Shown here in pieces: positions 14,085 through 53,778 of a stretch of DNA of 64,000 nt. The position numbers and the translations under genes are program-made. Numbering within the stretch: position 1 is the first letter of the stretch; each line of letters starts with the position of its first letter. Location of the stretch: assembly GCA_037176885.1 (NCBI GenBank), contig JAWWNJ010000215.1, positions 124,001 through 188,000 of the forward strand, written 5' to 3'. Below the pieces are notes generated by a model. That model searched no databases. It worked only from the letters and a program-made list of their open reading frames with translations, and was not told where the DNA came from. The stretch is from Favolaschia claudopus. Lineage: Eukaryota > Basidiomycota > Agaricomycetes > Agaricales > Mycenaceae.

Positions 14085-15890
14085 TCACGCGTAGCCGCTG
14101 AGCGGCCCTATCAACCGCGAAGATGTTGCGGAACCAGAGGACGTCTTTGGCGCAATGAGTGGTTGCGGATATTCAGCCTCGCAAGATGAGAGCGCGACGA
14201 CGGCTTGCTGCTTGGAGCTCCATGACAAGGGCGAGTTCCCCATGAGAATCACGAATCCCGAAACGGATTTACGCGTGTCGCCCATTCCCCAAGTCGGAGT
14301 CACTGAGCGCAGTGAGGATTGGTGTTCCTGAGTCGCGACCTCCAAGCGTGATGCCGTGCGCTGTGGTTCCGCGAAGATAACGCAGTAGGTGTTTGGCAGC
14401 GGTGATGTGGGCTGGACCGTAGCTTGCCATGAAATGAGCTAGTTCACGTACAGCGTACGCGATGTCGGGACGCGTGCAGGTCGCCAAGTACATACATTTC
14501 CCAACGATCGCGGTGTATGGGTAGTCCTTGGCCTTTGCGATGTCTTCGGCGGCAGCAGGCGTCAAGCGGGCGCTTGATCCATTGGGTCAGCACCGTGTTG
14601 CTCTTGTCAAACCCAAGTCACGGAGAATGGACTCCGTGTACGACTTTTGGTGAAGGCGGATGGTGCGTTGTTCCCTGTCGCGTTCGATGGTACAGCCAAG
14701 ATGTAGCTGCGGCTCAGCCGTTATCGGTGATTTCGAATTGAGCGGCCAGTGCCGCAACCACGGGCTCGGATTCAGCTTGCGAAGATGAGGCTATCAGCAT
14801 GTCGTCGACGCTTGTAGTAATGATGGAGTACTCGTTACCCGAGTCTCCGTTGGTATACACTCCAGTCGGACTCGATTCGTTTAAAACCGATGGATTCGAG
14901 TCGCGAATTTAGCTCCAGGTACCACTGCCGGCCTGCCTGCTTGAGTCCGTAGAGACCCTTCAGGAGCCTCCAATAACCCGGTCCCGCAATGGCAGGTTTC
15001 CGCATGTAAATCTCCTCCTCGAGGGGACCGTTGAGGAAAGCAGTTTTGACGTCGACTTGTCGTAGTGTCATGTCTTGGGCAGCTGCGAGTGCGAGTACAA
15101 AGCGAATCGATTCCCATCGAGCGACGGGTGCGAAAGTAAAGTTGTAATCTTGTCCAGGGATCTGAGTGAAGCCCTTTGCGACGAGTCTGGCTTTGAATCG
15201 TGATATCAGCCCATCGCGGTCGCGTTTAATGTGAAGAACCCATTTAGACGCAACGGCTTTACGGCCAGGTGGTAGATCCTCGACTTCTTCGTAGACGCCC
15301 TTCGCCTTCAGCGACTCGAGCTCTTCATGAATGGCGACCAACCACTGCGGCCAGTACATAGACGACTCTGCCTCGTGAACAGTCGCTGGGTCTTTAGCGT
15401 CTGGGTCATCGATGGGGTCGGAGAGAGCTGCAAAAGCGGTCTCTGTTTGCTCGAACGCCTGCGCGAGATCCACGAACTCCTCCGTTTCGCATTCAATCTC
15501 CAGCTCGTCACCCGACACTAGGACGGACATGAGGTAGTCCTCAGAGATGAGGAAATCGTTCCCCCCCTCGTCCAGTGTCGCGTGGTCGATGATGTATTTC
15601 GCTGGGACTTGGCGAACACGGGGTACACGGCGGTCAGCAATTGACCTGTCGTCGAGTTGGGCGTCAGGCATGGGGACGTCAGCGTCAGGTTGTCTGTTAA
15701 TGGACATTAGGCTTCGTTTACAAGCCGTGTTTGCGTTAACGCACGGAGTGACTGCTCGAGGCTGTATGCTCTGCGAGATCTCGTCTAGAATCTGTTGTAC
15801 AGCCCTGGTTAAACAGGTTAGATGGACGTTAACATCCAGACGCGTTAACACGTACTCAGGAGACGCGTCAGCACGCTCCGAGGTTTGCAT
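14085..15890 (-). pseudogene. Copia reverse transcriptase and RNase H
   Basis: The fragment 14,835-15,890 has the hallmark copia motifs ASKWVLHIKRDRDG, RFKARLVAKGFTQ, QVDVKTAFLNGPLEEEIYM and LLKGLYGLKQAGRQW. The catalytic box is read as SVDD just upstream of 14,790. After further frame changes the fragment 14,269-14,565 carries KCMYLATCTRPDIAYAV and HLLRYLRGTTAHGI, and 14,085-14,345 carries SWSSKQQAVVALSSCEAEY, the RNase H core. The sequence stops at about 14,081 where the gypsy block begins. Confidence 0.9.
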
Positions 15891-15946
15891 TTCAATGTCC
15901 TCAGAGGGACGCCTGGTTAAACAGGTGAGTACGATTTACGCTATCG

Positions 15947-16953
15947 TTAACGATAGAACGTACGGGTTTCGCTCAATGGCAGGGTTTGGCTCAATGGCCG
16001 GGTTTCGCTCGATGGCAGGGTTTGGCTCGATGGCCGGGTTTGGCTCGGTGGCCGGGCGCGCGGAGGTGGGGCCCGACGGGCGCCGCGATCTCTGAAGTGT
16101 TCCTCGAGATCACACGGCACGTCTTCCCATAGAATGTCGGAGAGTGGAGGTGATGGAAGGAAGTCAGGAAAACCATGGAATTGGACGTCGCGTCGCGAGC
16201 GGACAGATCTGGCCTCTGTAAGCCAGATCAAATATCCCTTGGAGTCGCGCGCATATCCAACAAAACGGCCTTCTTCCCCTCGCGGTGTCAATTTCGGTTG
16301 CTCCGTCGAGTTGGTTTTTCCCGCGCCCGTGACGAGAGCACCGAAGGGGCGCAGGTGCGAGAGGTCAGGTTTGCGCTTGAACCAGCTCTCGAAAGGTGTC
16401 GAACCGTCCTCGTTTGCTGAATGCGGCACTCGATTCTTAATGTGGATCGAGGCTTGGGGGCGAGCGGCCAAAACCAGAACGTGAGCGAGGCGTCGACCAG
16501 CATCGCCCTGATCATATGCTCAATCGTCTGGTTCAGCCGCTCCGCAACGCCGTTCTGAGGAGACGCGTCTGGCACCGTTTTCTCGTAGGTGATGCCGTTC
16601 TCGGTGCAGTAGTCCTTGAATTGACCGTACACGAGTTCAGGCGCATTGTCGATTCGTAGGTAGACAATCTTGGCACCCAGGAGATTCTCAGCTGAAGCGC
16701 GGAATTCGCGGAAGCACGTGAGGGAGTCGGATTTGGATTTTAGGAAGTAGATTGTAGTGAAACGTCGAAAATCGTCGGTAAAAGTGATGAAGTGTCTGTA
16801 GCCCCCATACCCCAGAGGTAGAGGACCACAGATGTCGGTGTGGATACGAAACAAGACGCGGTCGGCGCGGTTTAGAGCTTTGTTAGGGAACGGTAGTCGT
16901 TTGATATTGGCAAGAGCGCAAATGCGGCAGTTCTTGATGTTGACTGAGTCCAC
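15947..16953 (-). pseudogene. Copia integrase core and C-terminal linker
   Basis: The fragment 16,288-16,953 carries the DDE core: HTDICGPL (first Asp), RIDNAPE (second Asp) and NGVAERLNQT (Glu), in correct order and spacing for Ty1/copia. The fragment 15,947-16,471 continues with STPFESWFKRKPDLSHLRPF, a standard copia integrase block, and GRFVGYARDSKGYLIW. It ends in a repeated Pro-Ser-Gln/Glu-Thr tail encoded by an 18-bp minisatellite. A frame change near 16,470 separates the two. Confidence 0.85.
15964..16056 (+). repeat. 18-bp minisatellite in copia Pol linker
   Basis: Five units close to GGGTTTCGCTCAATGGCA lie head to tail. Variants differ at a few sites (TTCGCTC or TTGGCTC; AATGGC, GATGGC or GGTGGC). 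On the minus strand they encode a six-residue Ser/Thr/Pro repeat between integrase and reverse transcriptase. Confidence 0.9.
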
Positions 16954-17507
16954 CGGAAAGCCGAGGTGGCGCTATTGAGCCCTTTAACGTCTAGATGGCC
17001 CATTAGACGGTGGTAAAAACCAAGTCCTTGTTGGTATCGGCGTCGGCATCGGGTCCAAGGAGAGCAAGAACAGAGGGAGTTGTCGCATTGATGAGGTCGG
17101 TAGCCGAAAACGGAAGCAAATTTGCTTCCGTGGAGGTTCCCACGATCTTCACGCCCATCTTGTACAATCCACCAACTATCTCCCCAGACGCAAACTGGAT
17201 ACCATCCGCATTGAAGTATCGGATCTTCCCCCCCCCAGTGTCCGTCTGCACTCCCTTCAAGTCCAATCAGCGAAAACTTGGGGTCACCTTCGTGAGTGCC
17301 TTCAAGAATGACTTGTCCCTTCCCTAAGGCTTGGGTGGTTAGATTTGTTCCAAATCCATGAACACTCAACGGCTGGCTGAAGGTCTTGTATTCCTTGAAG
17401 GACACTTTGTTATTGAAGACGTGGCGCGACGCGCCTGTATCGTGGTAGACGTTCTCTGTTTGCTCCACCGCTCTGCGTTCAGCACAACATCCACCGCATT
17501 CACCCAC
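16872..17507 (-). pseudogene. Copia protease and GAG-pre-integrase region
   Basis: The fragment contains the retropepsin motif as HDTGASRHVF, then SVHGFG and an upstream part of the GAG-pre-integrase region. A run of eight or nine C on the plus strand near 17,229-17,237 coincides with a frame change; the original frame continues in 17,003-17,266. The later YHRLMGHLDVKGL block is the HxxxGHL zinc-binding signature of copia pre-integrase, and NCRICALANIKRLPF in the next fragment gives the paired cysteines. Confidence 0.8.
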
Positions 17508-17808
17508 ACCTCCTCCATTTCGTCCTCATCTTCTCCGTCTATCTCAAGTCTCCCGACCATGAACACGAAGTTCGCATCTACCGTTTCGTTCCCCAGCGCA
17601 TCCTGAATATCTTCTTCACTGTCTTCTGTGGCATCCACCATCCCAGCAAAGCGGTCTCCTGCGCTCCGAAGCGCCTGGCGCCGCCTCTCCGTTACACGCT
17701 CGGCCGGCGGCAGGTGAATGTCCCGCTGTCCTCGGTAGCTATCGGGATACTGACCCGCTTTTCCTCCCCCGTAAGAAAAACAATCCGCCTTTACATGACC
17801 GTACGGTG

Positions 17809-18820
17809 TCATGCAGAAATCATTGTGCAGATTATGCGTTCGCGCTGCGGCCTGTTGTCGCGATTATCGCGATTGTCGCGATTGTCTCGATTGTCTCGAT
17901 TGTTGGAAGATGCTGAAGATCGGTGGTCGTAAGGGCCTGCGCGACGGTCGTTCCGTTGGTGAGTACGTTCCATCTTTCTCCCTCCTGGTGTACCCGGCTG
18001 AACGAACGACGCGCTTGCTACAGCATCACCATCGTCGTTGTGTGCTCGAGCCTTCGAAGACGAGGAGGAGGAGGAGGTAGCAGCGGTGAACAGACCTTTG
18101 GAGAATTCCTCCCGTTGGAGGCGAGCAAGCACGAATGCCGATTTCAGTGGTTCTCCTCCCTGTTCGCTCTTCGCCATCTCCTCAAGCAGAATATCGCGGC
18201 AATACTGCCACTTGTCGCTCGGGGACATGTTCGTGATGAGACACTTTGCAAACTCGTGGTCAGGCAGCATCCCAGCATCGGCACGACGCAGCCTCTGGTA
18301 CTTCTCCATTATCTCGACCCTCCACGCGACAGGATTGGCGCCACACATGAAGGATGTTATCTGGCTCTTGAGGGTGATAGCCATAAGCGCATTTGTAGGT
18401 TCGTACGTCTCCTTGAGAGCTTCCCAGGCCTCGTGCGCTGACTTGCAGTCTTCGACGACGTAGAGTTTCGGTCCGGGAACGGCTTCGACGATAATTGCGA
18501 GCGCTTTCTTGTCTTGCGCGAGCCACGACTCCGCGTTCTTCTTTGCAACGTTCACTTCCACCTCGTTCCCGCGCGTTGTAATCGTAACTTCGTTGCCCTC
18601 GCCGTCGAAACCAGTGTGCGTCAAACTCTCCACCAGCTTCGGGATGACTGGTGGCTTATACTCAATCGCCTGCGACATATTTCCAGTACCCCGCAGCGTC
18701 AAGTTTGCGCTTCGCTTTGGATTGGAATTCTGCGTAGTTGTTGCTGCCGTCGCTGTTTTCTACAATAGGGGCAAGTGTGATTGGACGCCATTCTTTGTCG
18801 TTCGAGTTGGCTGACGCCAT
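17809..18820 (-). pseudogene. gag: Copia Gag, frameshifted
   Basis: The likely start is the ATG at 18,820 (MASANSNDKEW). A one-base frame change near 18,670 joins this N-terminus to the long fragment ending at 17,809, which carries the UBN2-like Gag core (ESWLAQDKKALAIIVEAV, then AWEALKETYEPTN). Near the C-terminus is an Arg-Asp-Asn repeat encoded by a 9-bp tandem repeat (about 17,857-17,905). The zinc knuckle that should follow survives only in part as GHVKADC in another frame (about 17,770-17,790). Gag would package element RNA; this copy cannot make an intact protein. Confidence 0.8.
17857..17905 (-). repeat. 9-bp tandem repeat in copia Gag
   Basis: About five units close to CGCGATTGT (plus strand) are arranged in tandem. 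On the minus strand they encode a short Arg-Asp-Asn repeat in the basic C-terminal tail of Gag. The length is a multiple of three, so the repeat keeps the frame. Confidence 0.85.
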
Positions 18821-29935: not shown

Positions 29936-31402
29936 AGACATATTCAGCTAGCAGCAGGTGAGCTGTCGATCACCGAGTTTGAGAGGCCACCAGATAGGTG
30001 TTAGAATATGGACAGAATTCGGGGGAGAATGAGCCTAGCGGTCCAGCGGGGCACCAGAAAGAGAGAATCGGTGGTGAAAGTAGAAGGAAAGCAGGAGAAC
30101 GTCTGAGAGCTATCGCCGAGAGGCTCACGTCACTCTGCCGAATTCCGAATCCTCGATCAATTGCCTTCCATCACAACAGCACCAAATACTACTTTGCCGA
30201 TCTGTCTGCTTCCGCTCTGTCTTGGCTTCTGTCACTTCCCCCGTTGTTGTTTCCCTACTCCTCGACTTTCTCCAACCCTTGACCGGAAGAATGAAATTCA
30301 TCTGGATATTTCCTGGCACAGAGGGCCAGGGCCACCCCAATTTGGAAACAGCGAGGTCCTCATCGATTCTAATTCCATAACCTATCGGCTTCAGGGTCTG
30401 CCCGTGATTCTGCTACGGACTTGCCAAAAAATCCATTGAGGCTATGCACTGGCTGCGGTGTTCCTGATCACCAGCGGAAAACCCGACGGCTACAAATTTA
30501 CACTTCGGACATGTCTTCGGGACTTGCCCGGATCACCCCGCCTGCAATGCCCAAATTGAAGATCGACAACCGTCGGGCGTCAGCATAACGTCGCAGTGGA
30601 GCTCAACGAACGTACTTACATACTGTAAGTATTACAGGTCGCCCACTGCATTACACAAATTACTTACTATACAACAAATAGAAAATCGCGACGTGTTTCG
30701 ACGTGTTCGGTCCGACTTCAACCCTCCGCGTCACCGCGGCATGGGCATGGATGTCAACTTCATTAGGTTATGTCCGTTGACAATCGCGGTCCGGCGTTCA
30801 ACCTCGCCTTTTATCCTTTTATCCTTTATCTGTAAGTGTGATTGGCCAATTTCTTGAATGCTGAGATCTGAGATTTGAGCAAGATTTGAGAACTTATCCT
30901 GATTCCATCCCGCACGATTGCAGAGATTCTGATAAGTACCGCAAAAGTCGCGAACTGGAAAAATCTAACGACTCGGAGGTACTACAGTACTTACTCTGAG
31001 CTCTTGCCATGACTGACTCTCCCGACTATATTCACTGGCAATCGAGCAACTTGGCTCTGGTGAGATACAAGGAGCGTCCCGACCCCAAATATAGTCTCCC
31101 CTCTTCCTCTCGCACGATTGACAGAAATTTGACTGTTGCGGTCAAGACCGACACAACCTCCGCAGCTAGAAATTCGCCGACAAGATTCGAGGATGGCCTG
31201 GATTTTGACAGGTTCGAGTGTCTCGCAGCATTAGGATAAATGCTGTTGACTTAGACCCGCAGTTCTATTGACCCAGTTCTTGGGAATGTTAACGCTGAAC
31301 TGTTCGTGCCTGTTGCGTTCAACAGAGCCAATGATAAGGCAAAAGACACTCGAAAACGGTAACCGATTATCTTTCATGATCACTCTTCTGTATATGCTCA
31401 AT
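29936..31402. other. Intergenic, upstream of the transcription factor
   Basis: No gene could be supported. A 76-codon ORF at 31,009-31,239 starts in a reasonable context but shows no family resemblance and has a GTGAG donor-like sequence early in it, so it could be a first exon or chance. Confidence 0.35.
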
Positions 31403-31493
31403 GCGCTCATGGTGAACTCGCAGCACCGGCACGTAGCTGAACTGCAATTTAGTTCCAGGAGAAATACAACCCCGTTCGACTCGAGGTGGGCGC
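31403..31493 (+). ncRNA. tRNA-like unit 1 (divergent)
   Basis: Acceptor strands GCGCTCA (31,403-31,409) and TGGGCGC (31,487-31,493) pair over seven positions with one G-U. A D-type stem GGTG/CACC is possible. The T arm CCCCG-TTCGACT-CGAGG has one mismatch. A T11 or longer run follows near 31,516. The standard D-arm core is not present, so this is the least typical copy. Confidence 0.4.
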
Positions 31494-31596
31494 CTTGGCA
31501 TGTTTCAACTCCATTTTTTTTTTTTGCATTGGTTCAAATGCGCATCTACGCATTTCTGTATTGACTACCTGGGCTATACTTTCGAGATTGAATAAA

Positions 31597-31690
31597 GACC
31601 CGTCGCGCTGGTGCGCATCTGCGATATGTCGGTACAAATGGTTTAGGTTCTAATCCGTGGAAATGCCTCCGTTCGATTCGGGGACGGGTT
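31597..31690 (+). ncRNA. tRNA-like unit 2
   Basis: Seven-pair acceptor stem GACCCGT/ACGGGTT. D stem GCGC/GCGC with loop TGGT. Anticodon-type stem TCTGC (31,618-31,622)/GTGGA (31,657-31,661). Five-base variable loop. T arm CTCCG-TTCGATT-CGGGG. T6 at 31,714-31,719. Confidence 0.6.
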
Positions 31691-31929
31691 ATTGGGAGGG
31701 ATTGGTTCTCGAATTTTTTATTATTGGTTGGTGAATCTCGAGATGGATTTTGTGCATGCAATAGCAGTCTGCAACTTCAAGTTCTCTTCTTCTTGAAATC
31801 GGAAACATAGAGATCTCACCTTTTTGGTTGTGGGCGGCGAAACAATTTTCAGTTTCAGGGTGAGCTTTCCTTTAGGTATTTGAATGTGCACTGTGTTCTG
31901 TGTTCTGACGCTTTCGACTCGACTCTGAA

Positions 31930-32019
31930 GACCTGTTGCGTTGGAATGCATCTGCAATCATTGGATGCGATGATAAGTGATCTTGGCAGATATCAACCCG
32001 TTCGATTCGGGAAAGGGTC
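31930..32019 (+). ncRNA. tRNA-like unit 3
   Basis: Acceptor GACCTGT/AAGGGTC pairs at six of seven. D stem GCGT/ATGC, loop TGGA. Anticodon-type stem TCTGC (31,951-31,955)/GCAGA (31,986-31,990), perfect. Variable loop TATCA. T arm core CCCG-TTCGATT-CGGG. T5 at 32,046-32,050. Confidence 0.6.
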
Positions 32020-32304
32020 CTACGCTGGTTTTGTAACAGTGACTATTTTTCTCTTGCTTCTGCTAATTTATTGTCTAGGTGAGTTCAATTGTCGAAATTG
32101 GGGTTCCGTTGAGGCGTTTCTTTTCACTGGAGAAACGTTTGAAGGCAAGTAAATTTACATCTGCGGTCCTAAATCATTAAATCTTCCCTACTTTGTCTGA
32201 ATCAGCATGGTATGAATGTTGAATCTCTTTCTGAATCACGCATCCTCCGCTGATACTAGTACTAATACTAGTGTGGTTGCAATTAGGAAGTTTCCATCCA
32301 CCAA

Positions 32305-32390
32305 TGCCTGTAGCGCTGGTGCGCATCCGCGCCAATTCAAGTTGTGCCTGTCTAACAGCAGATTAACCTCGTTCGATTCATGGTCAGGCT
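32305..32390 (+). ncRNA. tRNA-like unit 4
   Basis: Acceptor core GCCTG/CAGGC. D stem GCGC/GCGC, loop TGGT. Anticodon-type stem TCCGC/GCAGA (four of five). Variable loop TTAA. T loop TTCGATT intact, but the T stem CCTCG/CATGG is decayed. T5 at 32,423-32,427. Confidence 0.5.
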
Positions 32391-32543
32391 ATGCCACGAA
32401 ATGGAGTGCTTTGATTCGTTTCTTTTTCCCTGCCTGCCTCACTCTTGTCCCACTTCGTAATTTTTGAGAGGGTTTTAGTTCAAGAGTGTTTGTGGCAGTA
32501 GTAATGTATCCTGAAATCAGCCAACTTCGTGTGGTTGAACAAA

Positions 32544-32636
32544 GGCTCGTAGCGCTGGTGCGCGTCCGCGATATACATATTCAAGGTCTTCAAGCGTATT
32601 ATGGCGGAAGATCCCTGTTCGATTCGGGGACGAGCC
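32544..32636 (+). ncRNA. tRNA-like unit 5 (best preserved)
   Basis: Acceptor GGCTCGT/ACGAGCC is perfect and extends to nine pairs with flanking AA/TT. D stem GCGC/GCGC, loop TGGT. One linker base. Anticodon-type stem TCCGC (32,565-32,569)/GCGGA (32,604-32,608). Variable loop AGAT. T arm CCCTG-TTCGATT-CGGGG. T6 at 32,666-32,671. The anticodon-type loop is 34 bases instead of seven, as if it held an intron. Confidence 0.65.
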
Positions 32637-32877
32637 TTGCGTACGCCGTAAAGCGTATTGGACTGTTTTTTAAAATTCCCTTTTCTTTTTCTTTTTGCTT
32701 CGGCCCTGTTCATGAGTTCCAAGGCTTGTTGAATGTTTATTGTCAGTGGATGGCAAGTGGATCTTGTATTCTTATACTATGCCGGGAAGACAACCTTACA
32801 AGGTTCAAGTTGAATTCTCACGGGTAATTCTGTAGATTCCAAGCATTAGAAGTAAAGGACTACTTCATTCGAACAAA

Positions 32878-32970
32878 GGCTCATAGCGCTGGCGTGCATC
32901 CGTGAAGTATGGTTTAACGAGTTCTCAGTACATCACAGCGGCAGGCCCCCGTTCAATGCGGGGATGAACC
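32878..32970 (+). ncRNA. tRNA-like unit 6
   Basis: Acceptor GGCTCAT/ATGAACC pairs at six of seven. D stem GCGC/GTGC with loop TGGC keeps pairing through a G-U. Anticodon-type stem TCCGT/GCGGC pairs at four of five. T arm CCCCG-TTCAATG-CGGGG. T7 at 32,995-33,001. Confidence 0.55.
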
Positions 32971-33229
32971 GTAGTCCATCGATACGACTCATGCTTTTTT
33001 TCCTCTTCGTGCCTGCTCAGCGAAGCGCTCAGTCTTGTTGGATGCTTTGATCTGGGTGCTAAGCGACTTTTGAATTCGTTTCCTGCCGGGAGGACAGTTA
33101 GAGACTCAAGTTTGATTCTACATATTGAACCTCTATTATGATTCTGGGAATATTCGCGTATGGTTGGGTTGGGATCCAGGTCAGCGGAGCCCCAGTGGAG
33201 GAAGGTTGGAATGCACCCCCAATTCAGAA

Positions 33230-33350
33230 AGCTTGTAGCACCGGCGATGCGCCTGTGCAAAGTATTACCTGTGATGTGATATCTGAATATGAGAGTATCT
33301 GAATATAGTACCAGTGGATCCAATAACCCCGTTCGATTCGGGGGCAGGCT
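33230..33350 (+). ncRNA. tRNA-like unit 7, expanded middle
   Basis: Acceptor AGCTTGT/GCAGGCT pairs at all seven (two G-U). T arm CCCCG-TTCGATT-CGGGG is perfect. The D arm is altered to GCA/TGC and the middle part is about 30 bases longer than in other copies. T7 at 33,373-33,379. Confidence 0.5.
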
Positions 33351-33605
33351 ATTGAACGAGAATTCACTTTCCTTTTTTTCTTCGTCCTTACTGAGTTTTC
33401 TTCGCTTCCTGAGTACCATGGCTAGTAGGTGTCGAATTCAATTGAGTTTTACACATCAATGGATCCGGGTCGAGATCTCGAAAATATCTGTTGGCAGGAA
33501 TTGGCGGAATCTGGGCTGAATTGAGTTGTCGTGAGTCGACTAAGGTCAGTGTTCTTTCGAAGATATTCGCAGGCATTTGTTACTTGGAGTCTCGAAGTAT
33601 GTGCA

Positions 33606-33685
33606 GTCCTGCAACGACATCCCTGCAAACATTAAGAAATGGGGCGATGTCGTGCGGATCGTCCCGTTCGATTCGGGTGCAGGTT
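33606..33685 (+). ncRNA. tRNA-like unit 8, D arm lost
   Basis: Acceptor GTCCTGC/GCAGGTT pairs at six of seven. The T arm core CCCG-TTCGATT-CGGG is intact. The D arm is not recognisable; instead a long hairpin CGACATC/GATGTCG occupies the middle. T6 at 33,704-33,709. Confidence 0.45.
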
Positions 33686-33781
33686 TTAATCTGGCGGCGC
33701 CGATTTTTTATTTCTTCTGCGCCTTTTAACTTACTATAGTGTTCGTCGGATCCCTCAGCGCTCCAGTATCCAAATGACCAA

Positions 33782-33883
33782 GGCTTCGTAGCGCTGGTGC
33801 GCATCCGTGCAACGTATCTGCCTAGGAGTCAATGCGGCATCTCAACGGAAGTATGATCATACCCGTTCGATTCGGGGCGGGCC
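33782..33883 (+). ncRNA. tRNA-like unit 9
   Basis: D stem GCGC/GCGC, loop TGGT. Anticodon-type stem TCCGT (33,804-33,808)/ACGGA (33,845-33,849), perfect. T arm core CCCG-TTCGATT-CGGG. The acceptor stem is weak (about five pairs) and the variable region is 11 bases. T6 at 33,906-33,911. Confidence 0.5.
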
Positions 33884-34099
33884 GCTTCGAACGTGTTGTC
33901 TAGTCTTTTTTGAAATGATGTGTTCGTGCGTGCAGTAGGCAGTTTTGATTTAGGTTTGCGAGGCGGGTGGACGGGACGATACTAGATTTGCCGGGCACCG
34001 TCACTTCAGTCTTCGAGTTTGACATTGAATTTCGTACTCGCGCTGGTGATGTTTTACATAAGTTAGTGAGCCTCTCAGGAAACCAAGGAGGCGAATGGA

Positions 34100-34194
34100 T
34101 GCCTACGCGGGAAGTGCAGAATGCACGCAAAGATCCATGAGGCGTCATTATTCAACGAATCCAGACAGTGGCCCGTTCGATTCGGGAAAGGGCA
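34100..34194 (+). ncRNA. tRNA-like unit 10 (decayed 5' half)
   Basis: The T arm core CCCG-TTCGATT-CGGG is intact and the 3' acceptor strand AAGGGCA can pair at five of seven with TGCCTAC. The D arm is unclear. A T11 run lies at 34,215-34,225. Confidence 0.4.
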
Positions 34195-34293
34195 ATATAC
34201 ACGGTGCGGCTTTGTTTTTTTTTTTGTTTTTTACTAGTGCGCAGCGGGGATTGCCCAAGGACCTGGTTTGCTTATTGCTCATACAAGAACAGA

Positions 34294-34394
34294 GGTCCGT
34301 AGCGTCGGTACGCGTCTGCTTCGATTGCGGAGTACTCAATTGCTAGAGCACCAGCGAAAAGCCTGTTCGATTCGGGTACGGGCCTTCAATGGAT
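34294..34394 (+). ncRNA. tRNA-like unit 11, compact anticodon-type arm
   Basis: Acceptor GGTCCGT/ACGGGCC, all seven paired. D stem GCGT/ACGC with loop CGGT, a compensatory change against the usual GCGC/GCGC. Anticodon-type stem TCTGC (34,315-34,319)/GCGGA (34,327-34,331) closes a seven-base loop. The variable region is 39 bases. T arm GCCTG-TTCGATT-CGGGT. T6 at 34,416-34,421. Confidence 0.55.
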
Positions 34395-34644
34395 ATATAC
34401 GAAAGAATTGTGGAATTTTTTGTTACGTCGCTGAGTCGAATCCAGACCCAGGGCAGGGTGGTGCCTTAAAATGCAGGTTTATCCGTTGAAATCATTACGA
34501 ACAGGGTCGACGACGAGAAGAAACAAGAACCAAGGTGGTGGTTGGGAGCAAAGAGCTGTGACGTGATTTGATGTGATGTCACGGCTGTGATGCGCCGCAC
34601 GATGTCCGACGCAGATGCGTCTGAGTCGGTCTGATGGTGGCAAG

Positions 34645-39694: not shown

Positions 39695-40525
39695 TATCTT
39701 CCTGGCTATCGATACTTTCAGATCTCGAGCACCGTCTTTCTCAACTTTTTTTTCTATCCGTGCCATGTTGGTCAACGAATTTCCGTATACCCAATCTTCT
39801 TATTGTTTTTTGCTCTTGTTCTCCATTGCTTCTTGCAGTAAATAAAAAGGTCCATGTGCGATATTTTGCAGGTGGTCGAGTGCGGCCGACATCCTGTAAC
39901 GAATTAAATGCGAGTTCTACGATTGCCATCAAGCCACGATGGGAGATTTGAAGGTGCGACGGGATCCCCATGTTGAATATAGATATTCATTCCTCTCCGC
40001 CATGACGTCCAATCCGTCATACATTATATCTACCATCTATCCAACCGCGCAATTTCCCTGCAAGGCCTGATGCCGCTCGGATATTCAAGCACGGCTCAAT
40101 CCCTTAGGCTTCAAGATTCTGAAAGAAGTGCACTGGCATTCAGTGCCATTCACTGCTCTGTACCTTGATGCTGCCTTCTGTGCGCCGAGGTTAATACGGG
40201 AAAGTTAGTCAACGACGACTTCCGGCAGCAGTATCGCGCCTCGGGTGTCTTGGAGCTCGAGCCCCTTCAACTGACAAGTGCAGACTTTGCAGGGAGATCG
40301 TGAGCCAAGACAAAAGGCGGTCACGCCGCATGATGCGTTCATCAAACCATCAGGCCGATGTTGTGCCGCGGTGCTTTTAGAACTCAACAACCGCCTGCCA
40401 AGCCATTTGCTATTTCCGAAAAACAAGCGTCTCATGCTCATTTTTGTTTCCGACAAATATCCTTGCGCTGCTACCCGTCGTCTGCTCGTCGCTCACGAGT
40501 TACACCCTGTTGATTGTCGATGAAC
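39695..40525. other. Intergenic spacer between F-box and GH7 genes
   Basis: No supported gene. It contains the downstream region of the F-box gene and the promoter of the cellulase. Confidence 0.4.
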
Positions 40526-40533
40526 TATAAAAT
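40526..40533 (+). promoter_or_regulatory. TATA box of GH7 gene
   Basis: TATAAAAT lies 161 bp upstream of the GH7 start codon at 40,694, consistent with a TATA-driven, regulated secretory enzyme gene with a leader of roughly 130 nt. The ATG at 40,532 is out of the main frame context and probably not used. Confidence 0.5.
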
Positions 40534-40693
40534 GGACCCATTATCTTCGACATTTGCTCAGTCCTCGCTCTCTCGCTGTTCTCTCCAGCTTCGCAGCAGG
40601 ATCCACGGCTTTCATCGAAAGCTTTCGGTAAGCACACACTCTTCGAAATCCTCACCTCTCCATGCCATAGTTTCGCTGATTCAAATACTAGCA

Positions 40694-42657
40694 ATGTTCC
40701 CCGCCGCATCTTTGATCTCCTTCTGCCTCCTCGCCGTCGCATACGGTCAGCAGGCCGGCACTCTGCAGGCCGAAAACCACCCTTCCCTGCCCTCGCAAAA
40801 GTGCACCGGCAGCGGATCTTGCACGACGCTGCAGACCTCCGTTGTTCTCGACGGTAACTGGCGCTGGCTCCACTCCGTTAATGGCTCCACCAACTGCTAC
40901 ACTGGCAACACCTGGGACAAGACGCTCTGCCCCGACGCCGCAACCTGCACGGCTAACTGCGCTCTCGACGGTGCGGACTACAGTGGCGTCTATGGTATCA
41001 CCACTAGCGGCAACTCTTTGACTCTCAAGTTCGTTACTGGTGTGTCGCAATTCACCTGTGTGAATCCATTCATAATAGCTGACTCGAAATCTTCAGGCGC
41101 GAACATCGGATCCCGCGTCTACCTCTTGGCGGACCAAACGCACTACCAGATGCTTCAGCTCCTTAACCAGGAGTTCACCTTCGACGTCGACATGTCCAAC
41201 CTGGGCTGCGGTCTCAACGGTGCTCTCTACCTCTCCGAGATGCCCGCGGACGGTGGTATCTCGTCGACCAACAAGGCCGGCGCTAAGTACGGAACTGGCT
41301 ACTGCGACTCCCAGTGCCCCCACGACTTGAAGTTTATTGACGGTCTGGTGAGTTTCTTCTGTCATCTGTTCGTTCGTCATTCGATTCCAATGATTTTGCA
41401 AGGCGAACAACGTCAACTGGACCGGGTCTGCGAACGATCCCAACTCTGGAGCTGGCAGTAAGTGCATCCAGTCATCGCAGTACACTCCTGAGCTAAATCA
41501 AAACTTTGAAAGCTTTCGGCACCTGCTGTAACGAGATGGATATCTGGGAAGCTAACAAGAACGCTGCGGCTGTACGAATCTCTTCACTTCCTCTGATTAT
41601 CTTAGCTCAATTGACTCTAGTACACTCCCCACGTTTGCACTTCCAACGGAAAGTGCAGCGGCAATGACTGCGGCGACGGTTCCAACCGTTACGGTGGTCT
41701 CTGCGATAAGGACGGGTGCGATTTCAACTCGTGAGTTAGATGCTTCTTTCTCCAATGGCGCCGCTTACACTCTCGGTTCTAGTTACCGCATGGGCGACCA
41801 GACTTTCCTCGGCCCCGGCAAGACCGTCGACACCAACTCCAAATTCACCGTCGTAACCCAAGTGAGCATTTTCGTCTCATCATTATCTGAGCTGTTACTG
41901 ATTCTATCTCATCATAGTTCATCACCAATAACAACAGTTCCTCCGGCACCCTCACTGAAATCCGACGCCTCTACGTTCAAAACGGCAAAGTCATCCAAAA
42001 TTCTGCCAGCAAAATCAGCGGCGTCTCCGGCAACTCCATCACCGACAGCTTCTGCAATGCGCAAAAGACGACCTTTGGCGACACCAACAGCTTCGAATCG
42101 CGCGGTGGACTCTCTGCTATGGGCAAGGCACTGGGCCGGGGCATGGTTTTGGCGTTGAGCATTTGGGACGACCATGAGGCGGGGATGTATTGGCTTGATA
42201 GCTCGTACCCGCTCAATGCTAGCATCTCAAGTCCTGGTGTTCTCCGTGGTCCGTGCTCAACGACTTCGGGTGATCCGAAGACGGTCGAGGCCAACCAGGG
42301 AAGCAACTCGGTTACTTTCTCGAACATCAAGTTTGGCGATATTGGTTCGACCTTCAGCAGCACTGGTGGCGGTGGAACTTCCAACCCTGGAAGCCCGTCT
42401 TCTACTTCAAGCTCTCCTGGTAACACTGGTTCGGTAAGTTTCCTTCCATTCCACCTTTCTTTGAAACACGACTGACGATCTTGTTTTTAGTGCGCGGCTC
42501 AGTGGGCTCAGTGTGGTGGCCAAGGATGGGTGAGTCCATCTTCGTCAGATCGCTGCTCGAACTTTCTCTGATCTTCATTCAAAAGTCGGGCGCGACGTGT
42601 TGTGCTAGCCCCTACAAGTGCACAGTCTCCAACCCCTTCTACTCCCAATGTCTTTAA
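40694..42657 (+). CDS. GH7 cellobiohydrolase with C-terminal CBM1
   Basis: Nine exons close in phase: 40,694-41,039, 41,097-41,347, 41,403-41,457, 41,513-41,571, 41,621-41,730, 41,783-41,861, 41,918-42,433, 42,491-42,529 and 42,586-42,657, coding 508 residues. A signal peptide ([18 protein letters not shown]) leads into the mature start [15 protein letters not shown]. The catalytic motif EMDIWEAN carries nucleophile Glu, assisting Asp and acid/base Glu. Many paired Cys and Trp residues match family 7. After a Gly/Ser/Thr linker a cellulose-binding module of family 1 is split over the last two introns (QCGGQGW, then CCASPYKC and YSQCL). The enzyme is secreted and releases cellobiose processively from cellulose chain ends. 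Length and architecture match CBH I. Confidence 0.95.
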
Positions 42658-53470: not shown

Positions 53471-53683
53471 CTGCATTTCTGCCATCTAGACCCTGGCTTT
53501 CCTCACGGCATGATTATGCTCGATGTAAACCGCTGATGCTTTTACGCTCTTGCCTTACTGCTCGACTTCCTCAAATAAAACTCGAACTCACCCCGCCTCT
53601 CCACACTTCCAATCGCTGCACCGGCGTCCTCTTGTTCGGATTCACAGAGATGCCAAAAAACAGGACAAATCCTTTCATTTTAA

Positions 53684-53778
53684 GACCGCCGCCCAAATCG
53701 AACGGGCCTCAGTTCATGTCATAACCTCGTTCGAAATCTTCGAGATTCCGCAGATGCGCACTGGTGCTACAGGCAGTC
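53684..53778 (-). ncRNA. tRNA-like unit 20
   Basis: Minus strand: acceptor GACTGCC (53,778-53,772)/GGCGGTC (53,690-53,684), all seven paired with one G-U. D stem GCAC/GTGC, a compensatory variant of GCGC/GCGC. T arm GCCCG-TTCGATT-TGGGC. T6 downstream near 53,655. Confidence 0.6.

Follow-up and report, generated by a model that had tools for sequence, protein, structure and literature searches.

What are the small units that crowd a 3-kb segment of a mushroom genome, each folding like a transfer RNA (tRNA) with an insert in its anticodon-type loop? The segment lies at 31.4-34.4 kb of a 64,000-nucleotide stretch of Favolaschia claudopus (contig JAWWNJ010000215.1, positions 124,001 to 188,000), which was analysed at its full length and is called the window here. 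We consider that the units probably represent a large clustered family of RNA polymerase III (Pol III) genes for tRNA-like, mostly non-decoding RNAs. They have a common fold that covaries, constrained arms, terminators, and conserved bases at the presumed processing sites. Among the matches listed in the open-licence literature we found no described fungal family of such units, in agreement with an earlier note on this sequence.

A covariance model (R1), built from ten aligned window copies with its structure fixed from the stems, was scored on 31 sequence stretches (194 kb) and gave 106 matches at E<=0.001. The earlier note had described eleven plus-strand copies at 31403-34394; nine of these pass at that threshold (starts 31597, 31930, 32305, 32544, 32878, 33230, 33606, 33783 and 34294) and two are weak. 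Eight of the nine also trained the model, so that their scores arise partly by construction; the units on other contigs are independent. The array of tRNA-like units is confirmed, and the note's interpretation as a whole is supported. The note had confined the array to 31.4-34.4 kb, but members of the family turn up on many contigs, and the window itself has a second cluster at 44.8-53.8 kb, with eight of its nine units on the minus strand. The window total at E<=0.001 is thus 18 units, nine in each cluster, and those of the first share a cloverleaf and little else. Six of 11 further genome stretches had no model match at E<=0.01 and five had matches. A loose regular-expression descriptor of the stems was dropped for the covariance model, as it did not separate the window from shuffled windows by count: its plus-strand matches numbered 20 in the window and 6-19 across 30 Markov-shuffled windows, with best scores of 21 and 20. 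The evidence therefore rests on the covariance model and on features outside it. The window units are as follows.

31423..31493, plus strand: weak or divergent unit, 11.2 bits, E 0.95; ARAGORN calls tRNA-Ser(gct) at 31403-31494
31597..31690, plus strand: tRNA-like unit, 76.0 bits with R1; T6 lies 23 nt downstream; allele on contig C7 and near-identical copy on contig C294
31930..32019, plus strand: tRNA-like unit, 67.6 bits
32305..32390, plus strand: tRNA-like unit, 69.3 bits
32544..32636, plus strand: tRNA-like unit with the top score, 88.5 bits; alleles at C7:2752242-2752334 and on C422, 96%
about 32576-32602, plus strand: putative intron of the preceding unit, with first base C instead of the usual T
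32878..32970, plus strand: tRNA-like unit, 78.3 bits
33230..33350, plus strand: tRNA-like unit with a long insert of 57 nt, 59.6 bits
33606..33685, plus strand: decayed or divergent tRNA-like unit, 24.1 bits, E 0.0002
33783..33883, plus strand: tRNA-like unit, 64.6 bits
34172..34186, plus strand: T-arm of a weak unit; only model positions 72-86 match, at 14.6 bits, E 0.098
34294..34384, plus strand: tRNA-like unit, 64.6 bits
44793..44903, plus strand: tRNA-like unit of the second cluster, 52.4 bits
47675..47760, minus strand: tRNA-like unit of the second cluster, 38.1 bits
47897..47989, minus strand: tRNA-like unit of the second cluster, 63.4 bits
48266..48362, minus strand: tRNA-like unit of the second cluster, 44.8 bits
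51945..52043, minus strand: tRNA-like unit of the second cluster, 73.5 bits
52407..52502, minus strand: tRNA-like unit of the second cluster, 52.9 bits
53167..53259, minus strand: tRNA-like unit of the second cluster, 40.4 bits
53371..53470, minus strand: tRNA-like unit of the second cluster, 38.0 bits
53683..53775, minus strand: tRNA-like unit of the second cluster, 30.1 bits; ARAGORN calls tRNA-Ser(cga) at 53683-53778

The alignment of all 106 copies has the layout of acceptor, linker, D, anticodon and T arms that the earlier note had proposed. A 7-bp acceptor stem is joined by one linker base (98/106 copies) to a D stem of 4 bp, whose short loop, mostly 4-5 nt, holds GG (TGGT in 36, TGGA in 15 and TGGC in 9 of the 106). 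The anticodon stem has 5 bp, the insert in its loop is mostly 27-43 nt long, and the T loop reads TTCGATT in 83 copies. Conservation is strong in the D-loop GG and in the T loop, the two places that overlap with the A and B boxes.

Pairing was tested in this alignment (A3; 106 rows, 105 distinct, 2,108 stem cells) against 500 shuffles that exchange stem partners. Paired bases occupy 92.1% of the stem cells compared with 76.2% after shuffling, both-side changes number 384 against 113.9, and the covariation score is 0.520 against 0.235; none of the 500 shuffles reached any of these values. Stem pairs showing both-side change number 20 against 15.6, which one shuffle reached. When partners are shifted by 1-3 columns, pairing drops to 38-42%. 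The acceptor, D, anticodon and T stems each contain pairs with both-side changes. Thus the excess of pairing over shuffled alignments, which the earlier note had left to be checked, is present, and the acceptor closure is kept, unlike that of typical tRNA-derived short interspersed nuclear elements (SINEs). Extension of the acceptor pairing from -1/+1 to -5/+5 gave no clear excess (for example, 40 against 34.4 at -1/+1).

Because the model had guided the alignment and the copies share ancestry, haplotypes were compared as well. Positions 22516-64000 of the window and C7:2704-2762 kb are divergent haplotypes, mostly inverted and colinear, with aligned blocks 72-96% identical; contigs C294 and C422 are near-identical duplicates at the haplotype region, and the assembly seems to hold both nuclei. 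For eight of the 18 window units (ten were left out), the four arms differ between the window contig (C215) and C7 at 32/432 sites (7.4%) and have no gaps. Inserts differ at 50/256 sites (19.5%, plus 22 gapped), trailers at 33/191 (17.3%, plus 13 gapped) and spacers at 328/1,855 (17.7%, plus 248 gapped). At the sequence level, then, the arms are constrained, and insert and trailer drift like spacer. Within 12 pairs of close copies (10 between the window and C7, two between C101 and C8), 36 of 247 stem pairs differ; 14 of these are one-side changes that keep pairing, against 6.0 expected for a random base, and one is a double change with pairing kept.

Signals for Pol III were sought outside the units, where the model has no say: downstream T-runs, scarcity of internal T-runs and the T after base 73 are all features outside the search model. 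A run of at least four T within 80 nt follows 105 of 105 testable units (one of the 106 was dropped for lack of sequence), compared with 0.316 of random windows, and at least five T follow 99/105, compared with 0.154. Inside the unit, by comparison, a run of at least five T occurs in 1/105 (0.175 of random windows, 0.058 of shuffled units) and of at least four in 5/105 (0.358 and 0.237). The downstream T-run of the earlier note is therefore universal among testable units, but its range of 20-50 bp was too wide: the first run lies at a median of 22 nt past the unit, with a 10-90% range of 17-30, and trailer length has a mean of 22.8 (standard deviation 5.1). For comparison, 38 loci of real tRNA genes in this genome were taken from 58 scored Rfam matches; 34 are distinct and 32 have a T-run, whose median distance is 6 nt, with six of the 32 at 17-21 nt. 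A separate measurement on 36 gives a median of 5 nt. tRNase Z cuts after the unpaired base past the acceptor stem and prefers U there. T occupies the second position past the acceptor in 82% of units compared with 17/34 real tRNA genes, a figure that is doubtful because the stem register of several of these genes looks shifted. Base 73 of the units is mixed and unconserved. Judged by sequence, the units thus have the features of type 2 Pol III genes, namely internal A and B boxes and a T-run terminator.

The insert noted earlier in the anticodon-type loop is present; what needs correcting is its character, for it resembles a tRNA intron in behaviour and lies where such introns canonically lie. 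A tRNA intron is described as starting one base 3' of the anticodon, that is, six bases past the stem, and base 32 as pairing with the third-last intron base in tRNA precursors (PMC8479045). In 91 units (15 of the 106, with short inserts or irregular stems, were left out), insert position 7 is T in 79, which makes it the sole strongly conserved insert base (1.05 bits), and insert bases 1-7 are more conserved than the next ones in two subfamilies. The pair between insert position 1 and position -4, which matches the base 32-intron pair, has the top mutual information of 144 pairs (z 9.9); it was expected ahead of computation, though without a written record. Watson-Crick pairs occur there in 35/91 units against 22.0 after permutation (p 0.0005), and between position 1 and either -4 or -5 in 56 against 39.5 (0/2,000 permutations), with no excess at -3 and -6. 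Since the conserved T sits at the intron start and base 32 pairs with its expected partner above chance, the insert is probably a tRNA-type intron that could be spliced out. Real introns of this genome begin with T in 19 of 28 cases, C in 6 and A in 3 (counted by eye, with one gene left out as unclear and repeated isodecoders kept).

Most copies are probably unable to decode, because U33 is scarce (24/91 units) and the anticodon loop drifts. Haplotypes differ at 9/48 sites over eight pairs, or 11/60 over ten, in the six loop bases that precede the presumed intron (counted by eye). One subfamily, at C15:240900-243200 and C1:5032000-5034000, has normal-looking tRNA loops (CTTNAA in most), a clean anticodon-intron pair and differing anticodons. 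All nine members counted have T at position 33; in insert numbering, all nine have C at position 1, G at -4 and T at both 2 and 7. This subfamily may be closest to the ancestor or partly decoding. Rfam at its gathering threshold found nothing in the whole window, and at E<=10 on 31000-34600 it gave one unrelated weak match and no tRNA. ARAGORN recognised three of the 106 units by default and eight with introns allowed, and none of the shuffled units. The default ARAGORN count and the lack of Rfam matches in the array suggest that standard tRNA and Rfam searches can miss such a family. A resemblance to selenocysteine tRNA, whose D loop has 4 nt, was dropped since the D stem here has four pairs.

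The family extends far beyond the window. The 264.6-Mb genome contains 337 copies of a 13-mer from the T arm, CCGTTCGATTCGG, and one copy of the reversed 13-mer. Around 20 mostly isolated 13-mer sites, 16 stretches held 30 model matches at E<=0.05 and four held none; the single tRNA that ARAGORN reported there coincides with a unit. The exact marker is present in 11/40 units of the window and C7 stretches, which are partly mutual alleles, so that around a thousand units would exist over two haplotypes, with an uncertainty of at least twofold. For position, the first 100 of the 337 marker places were taken, and the 95 on contigs of known length were used (five dropped). They form 27 clusters, which lie closer to the ends of contigs, at a mean relative distance of 0.160, than do 30 of the 58 real tRNA places, at 0.284 (p 0.0008); such ends need not be telomeres. 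Five viral-contig matches to a D-arm 20-mer were taken as chance: each scored 18.5 bits, ARAGORN found no tRNA in the five, and one that was inspected directly lacked a matching T arm nearby.

Similar units give some indication of how the family was copied. There are 65 similar pairs, 48 of which are not window/C7 alleles; among these, 20 lose similarity within 20 bp beyond both edges, 24 are mixed, and four extend more than 50 bp on both sides, as fits segmental duplication. In two subfamilies of 10 and 8 units, the units score 0.76 and 0.73 and the flanks 0.45-0.50 against 0.41-0.42 for shuffled sequence. Among members of the C101/C8 subfamily the arms are almost alike and the inserts unrelated. 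These patterns appear to be explained better by old duplications, both tandem and segmental, under selection for the arms than by retroposition.

From such sequence features we infer transcription, trimming, splicing and function as follows. Two internal promoter elements, an A box (TAGCGC-TGGT-GCGC) and a B box (GTTCGATTC), would be bound by TFIIIC. Transcription by Pol III would begin just upstream of the unit and end some 22 nt beyond the acceptor stem, at the T-run. The resulting precursor would adopt a cloverleaf fold in which the D loop is very short. tRNase Z could then cut 3' of the unpaired base after the acceptor stem, and the tRNA splicing endonuclease (TSEN) could remove the insert; what remains would be a body of about 65-70 nt in which the anticodon loop can drift freely. 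We think that this retained body is the functional part, binding proteins that handle tRNA, since conservation is confined to it; given the longer trailer, by-products may matter too.

Several results weigh against this account. With relaxed settings and introns allowed, ARAGORN finds a tRNA on the right strand in 105/106 units, compared with 36/106 shuffled ones, so that some units may be remote true tRNAs; together with the mixed flank results, this slightly lowers our confidence. The D loop appears too short for canonical contacts beyond GG. Fitting the alignment to the model favours the structure, and 20 of the 36 changed stem pairs in close copies are formed in one copy only, so that some members are decaying. 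As to the intron, allowing GU at -4 leaves a small excess (49 against 40.9, p 0.039), the unpredicted offset -7/-8 is also in excess (53 against 41.8, p 0.006), and many copies lack the pair at position 1 and -4 (G-A in 15, T-T in 10 and A-C in 7 of 91). The insert permutations also ignore relatedness, which inflates such tests. Finally, a trailer longer and more regular than that of real tRNA genes is not explained by a function of the body only.

This last point suits a different, though unlikely, explanation, in which the tRNA-like part is a handle and the cargo, acting as small RNAs, is either the trailer of about 17-30 nt with its U-tail, which tRNase Z would release, or the insert once it has been excised. 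The confined trailer length, greater than the median of 6 in 32 real tRNA genes (six of which lie at 17-21), the T that commonly follows the discriminator base and the near-identical arms paired with unrelated inserts all agree with it. However, inserts and trailers drift like spacer, neither shows hairpins beyond shuffles or insert-trailer complementarity, and three variable segments that were tested have no match elsewhere in the genome at up to three mismatches except in alleles or haplotigs. Still less probable, in our judgement, is that the units are decaying tRNA pseudogenes spread by tandem duplication and without present function. The clusters, their bias to contig ends, the decayed members at 33606, 31423 and 34172 and the stem pairs formed in one of two close copies would all be expected of such remnants, whereas their arms would hardly covary or change, gap-free, at under half the spacer rate, nor would terminators be kept in 105/105 units and internal T5 be rare.

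The remaining explanations are highly improbable. The earlier note had itself allowed that the copies might belong to a known SINE, and a retroposed tRNA-derived element could account for the tRNA-like form, the A and B boxes and the many copies. The SINE tests nonetheless mostly came out negative. Flanking direct repeats of 8 bases occur at 8/106 units against 3.3 expected (reached in 3/200 permutations), yet repeats of 6, 7 and 9 bases show no excess in the 106 units, inserts are not shared, the acceptor stem is kept, and no shared non-tRNA body or tail was seen in the 48 non-allelic similar pairs. No better founded is a role purely at the DNA level, as TFIIIC sites serving as insulators or clamps whose RNA is irrelevant: the conserved D-loop GG and T loop would follow from it, but the acceptor and anticodon stems covary although they lie outside the boxes, and the units have retained both the T-run and the T that follows base 73. 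Least probable of all are remnants of long terminal repeats (LTRs) from terminal-repeat retrotransposons in miniature (TRIMs) of the Helenus type. LTRs carrying tRNA-like sequence are reported in Agaricus, Coprinopsis and Amylostereum (PMC10886601), where promoter motifs are described as kept but predicted structures as not supporting tRNA function; the units here keep the fold, their paralogue flanks are near shuffled values, and no direct-repeat family longer than 40 nt was found in 30.0-35.5 kb.

We therefore return to a family of Pol III genes for tRNA-like, mostly non-decoding RNAs as the favoured reading. If expressed, it would possibly rival the tRNA genes in number, although both totals are rough (63 of 8,616 tRNA candidates were scored), and it would have kept the tRNA fold while mostly losing anticodon function. 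It would also offer a test system for the non-decoding tRNA body, including competition for tRNA enzymes, non-ribosomal uses and small RNAs, and for the splicing endonuclease and tRNase Z on non-tRNA substrates. A bolder scheme, which we put forward as a speculation and think unlikely, is that in this mushroom lineage intron-containing tRNA genes were turned into a chassis, at perhaps a thousand loci. Each locus would combine a constant tRNA-like body with two fast-diversifying short RNAs, the intron and the roughly 22-nt trailer, released by tRNA splicing and tRNase Z, with the repertoire placed toward contig ends.

Elsewhere in the window, RVT_2 and gag domains mark the fragments of a Copia-type LTR retrotransposon at 14835-18759 on the minus strand, and a tandem repeat of an 18-base unit in 5.2 copies lies at 15963-16056. 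An exon of a glycoside hydrolase family 7 protein (cellulase) is found at 40514-41461; its best match is in Favolaschia claudopus (80%), followed by Mycena.

Among known systems, the nearest kinds are intron-containing tRNA genes, tRNA-derived SINEs and Helenus TRIMs, and each fails at least one tested feature. Helenus TRIMs also have tRNA-like sequence and are found in Basidiomycota, but they are described as sitting in LTRs with a primer-binding site and polypurine tract (PMC10886601), and no LTR pair was found around the units here. AfuSINE2 likewise has Pol III boxes in tRNA-related sequence, and is described as having target-site duplications and an extended tRNA-unrelated region (PMC5063351); our units yielded no common body, and the search for such duplications was negative for the most part. 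AfuSINEs are said to be enriched in subtelomeric regions (PMC5063351). Intron-containing nuclear tRNA genes share most with the units: the 7-bp acceptor, the T arm, the A and B boxes, the T-run terminator, an insert at the intron position and, in 19/28 real introns here, T as the first intron base. The units depart from them in a D loop of mostly 4-5 nt, a single linker base, a drifting anticodon loop mostly without U33, a terminator at 22 rather than about 6 nt, and the lack of Rfam tRNA matches in the array, with ARAGORN accepting 3/106 units, or 8/106 with introns. The TMERs of the gammaherpesvirus MHV68 are, like the units, clustered Pol III tRNA-like genes with a 3' extension; unlike TMERs, the units have trailers without a hairpin signal and carry an intron-like insert in the tRNA-like part.

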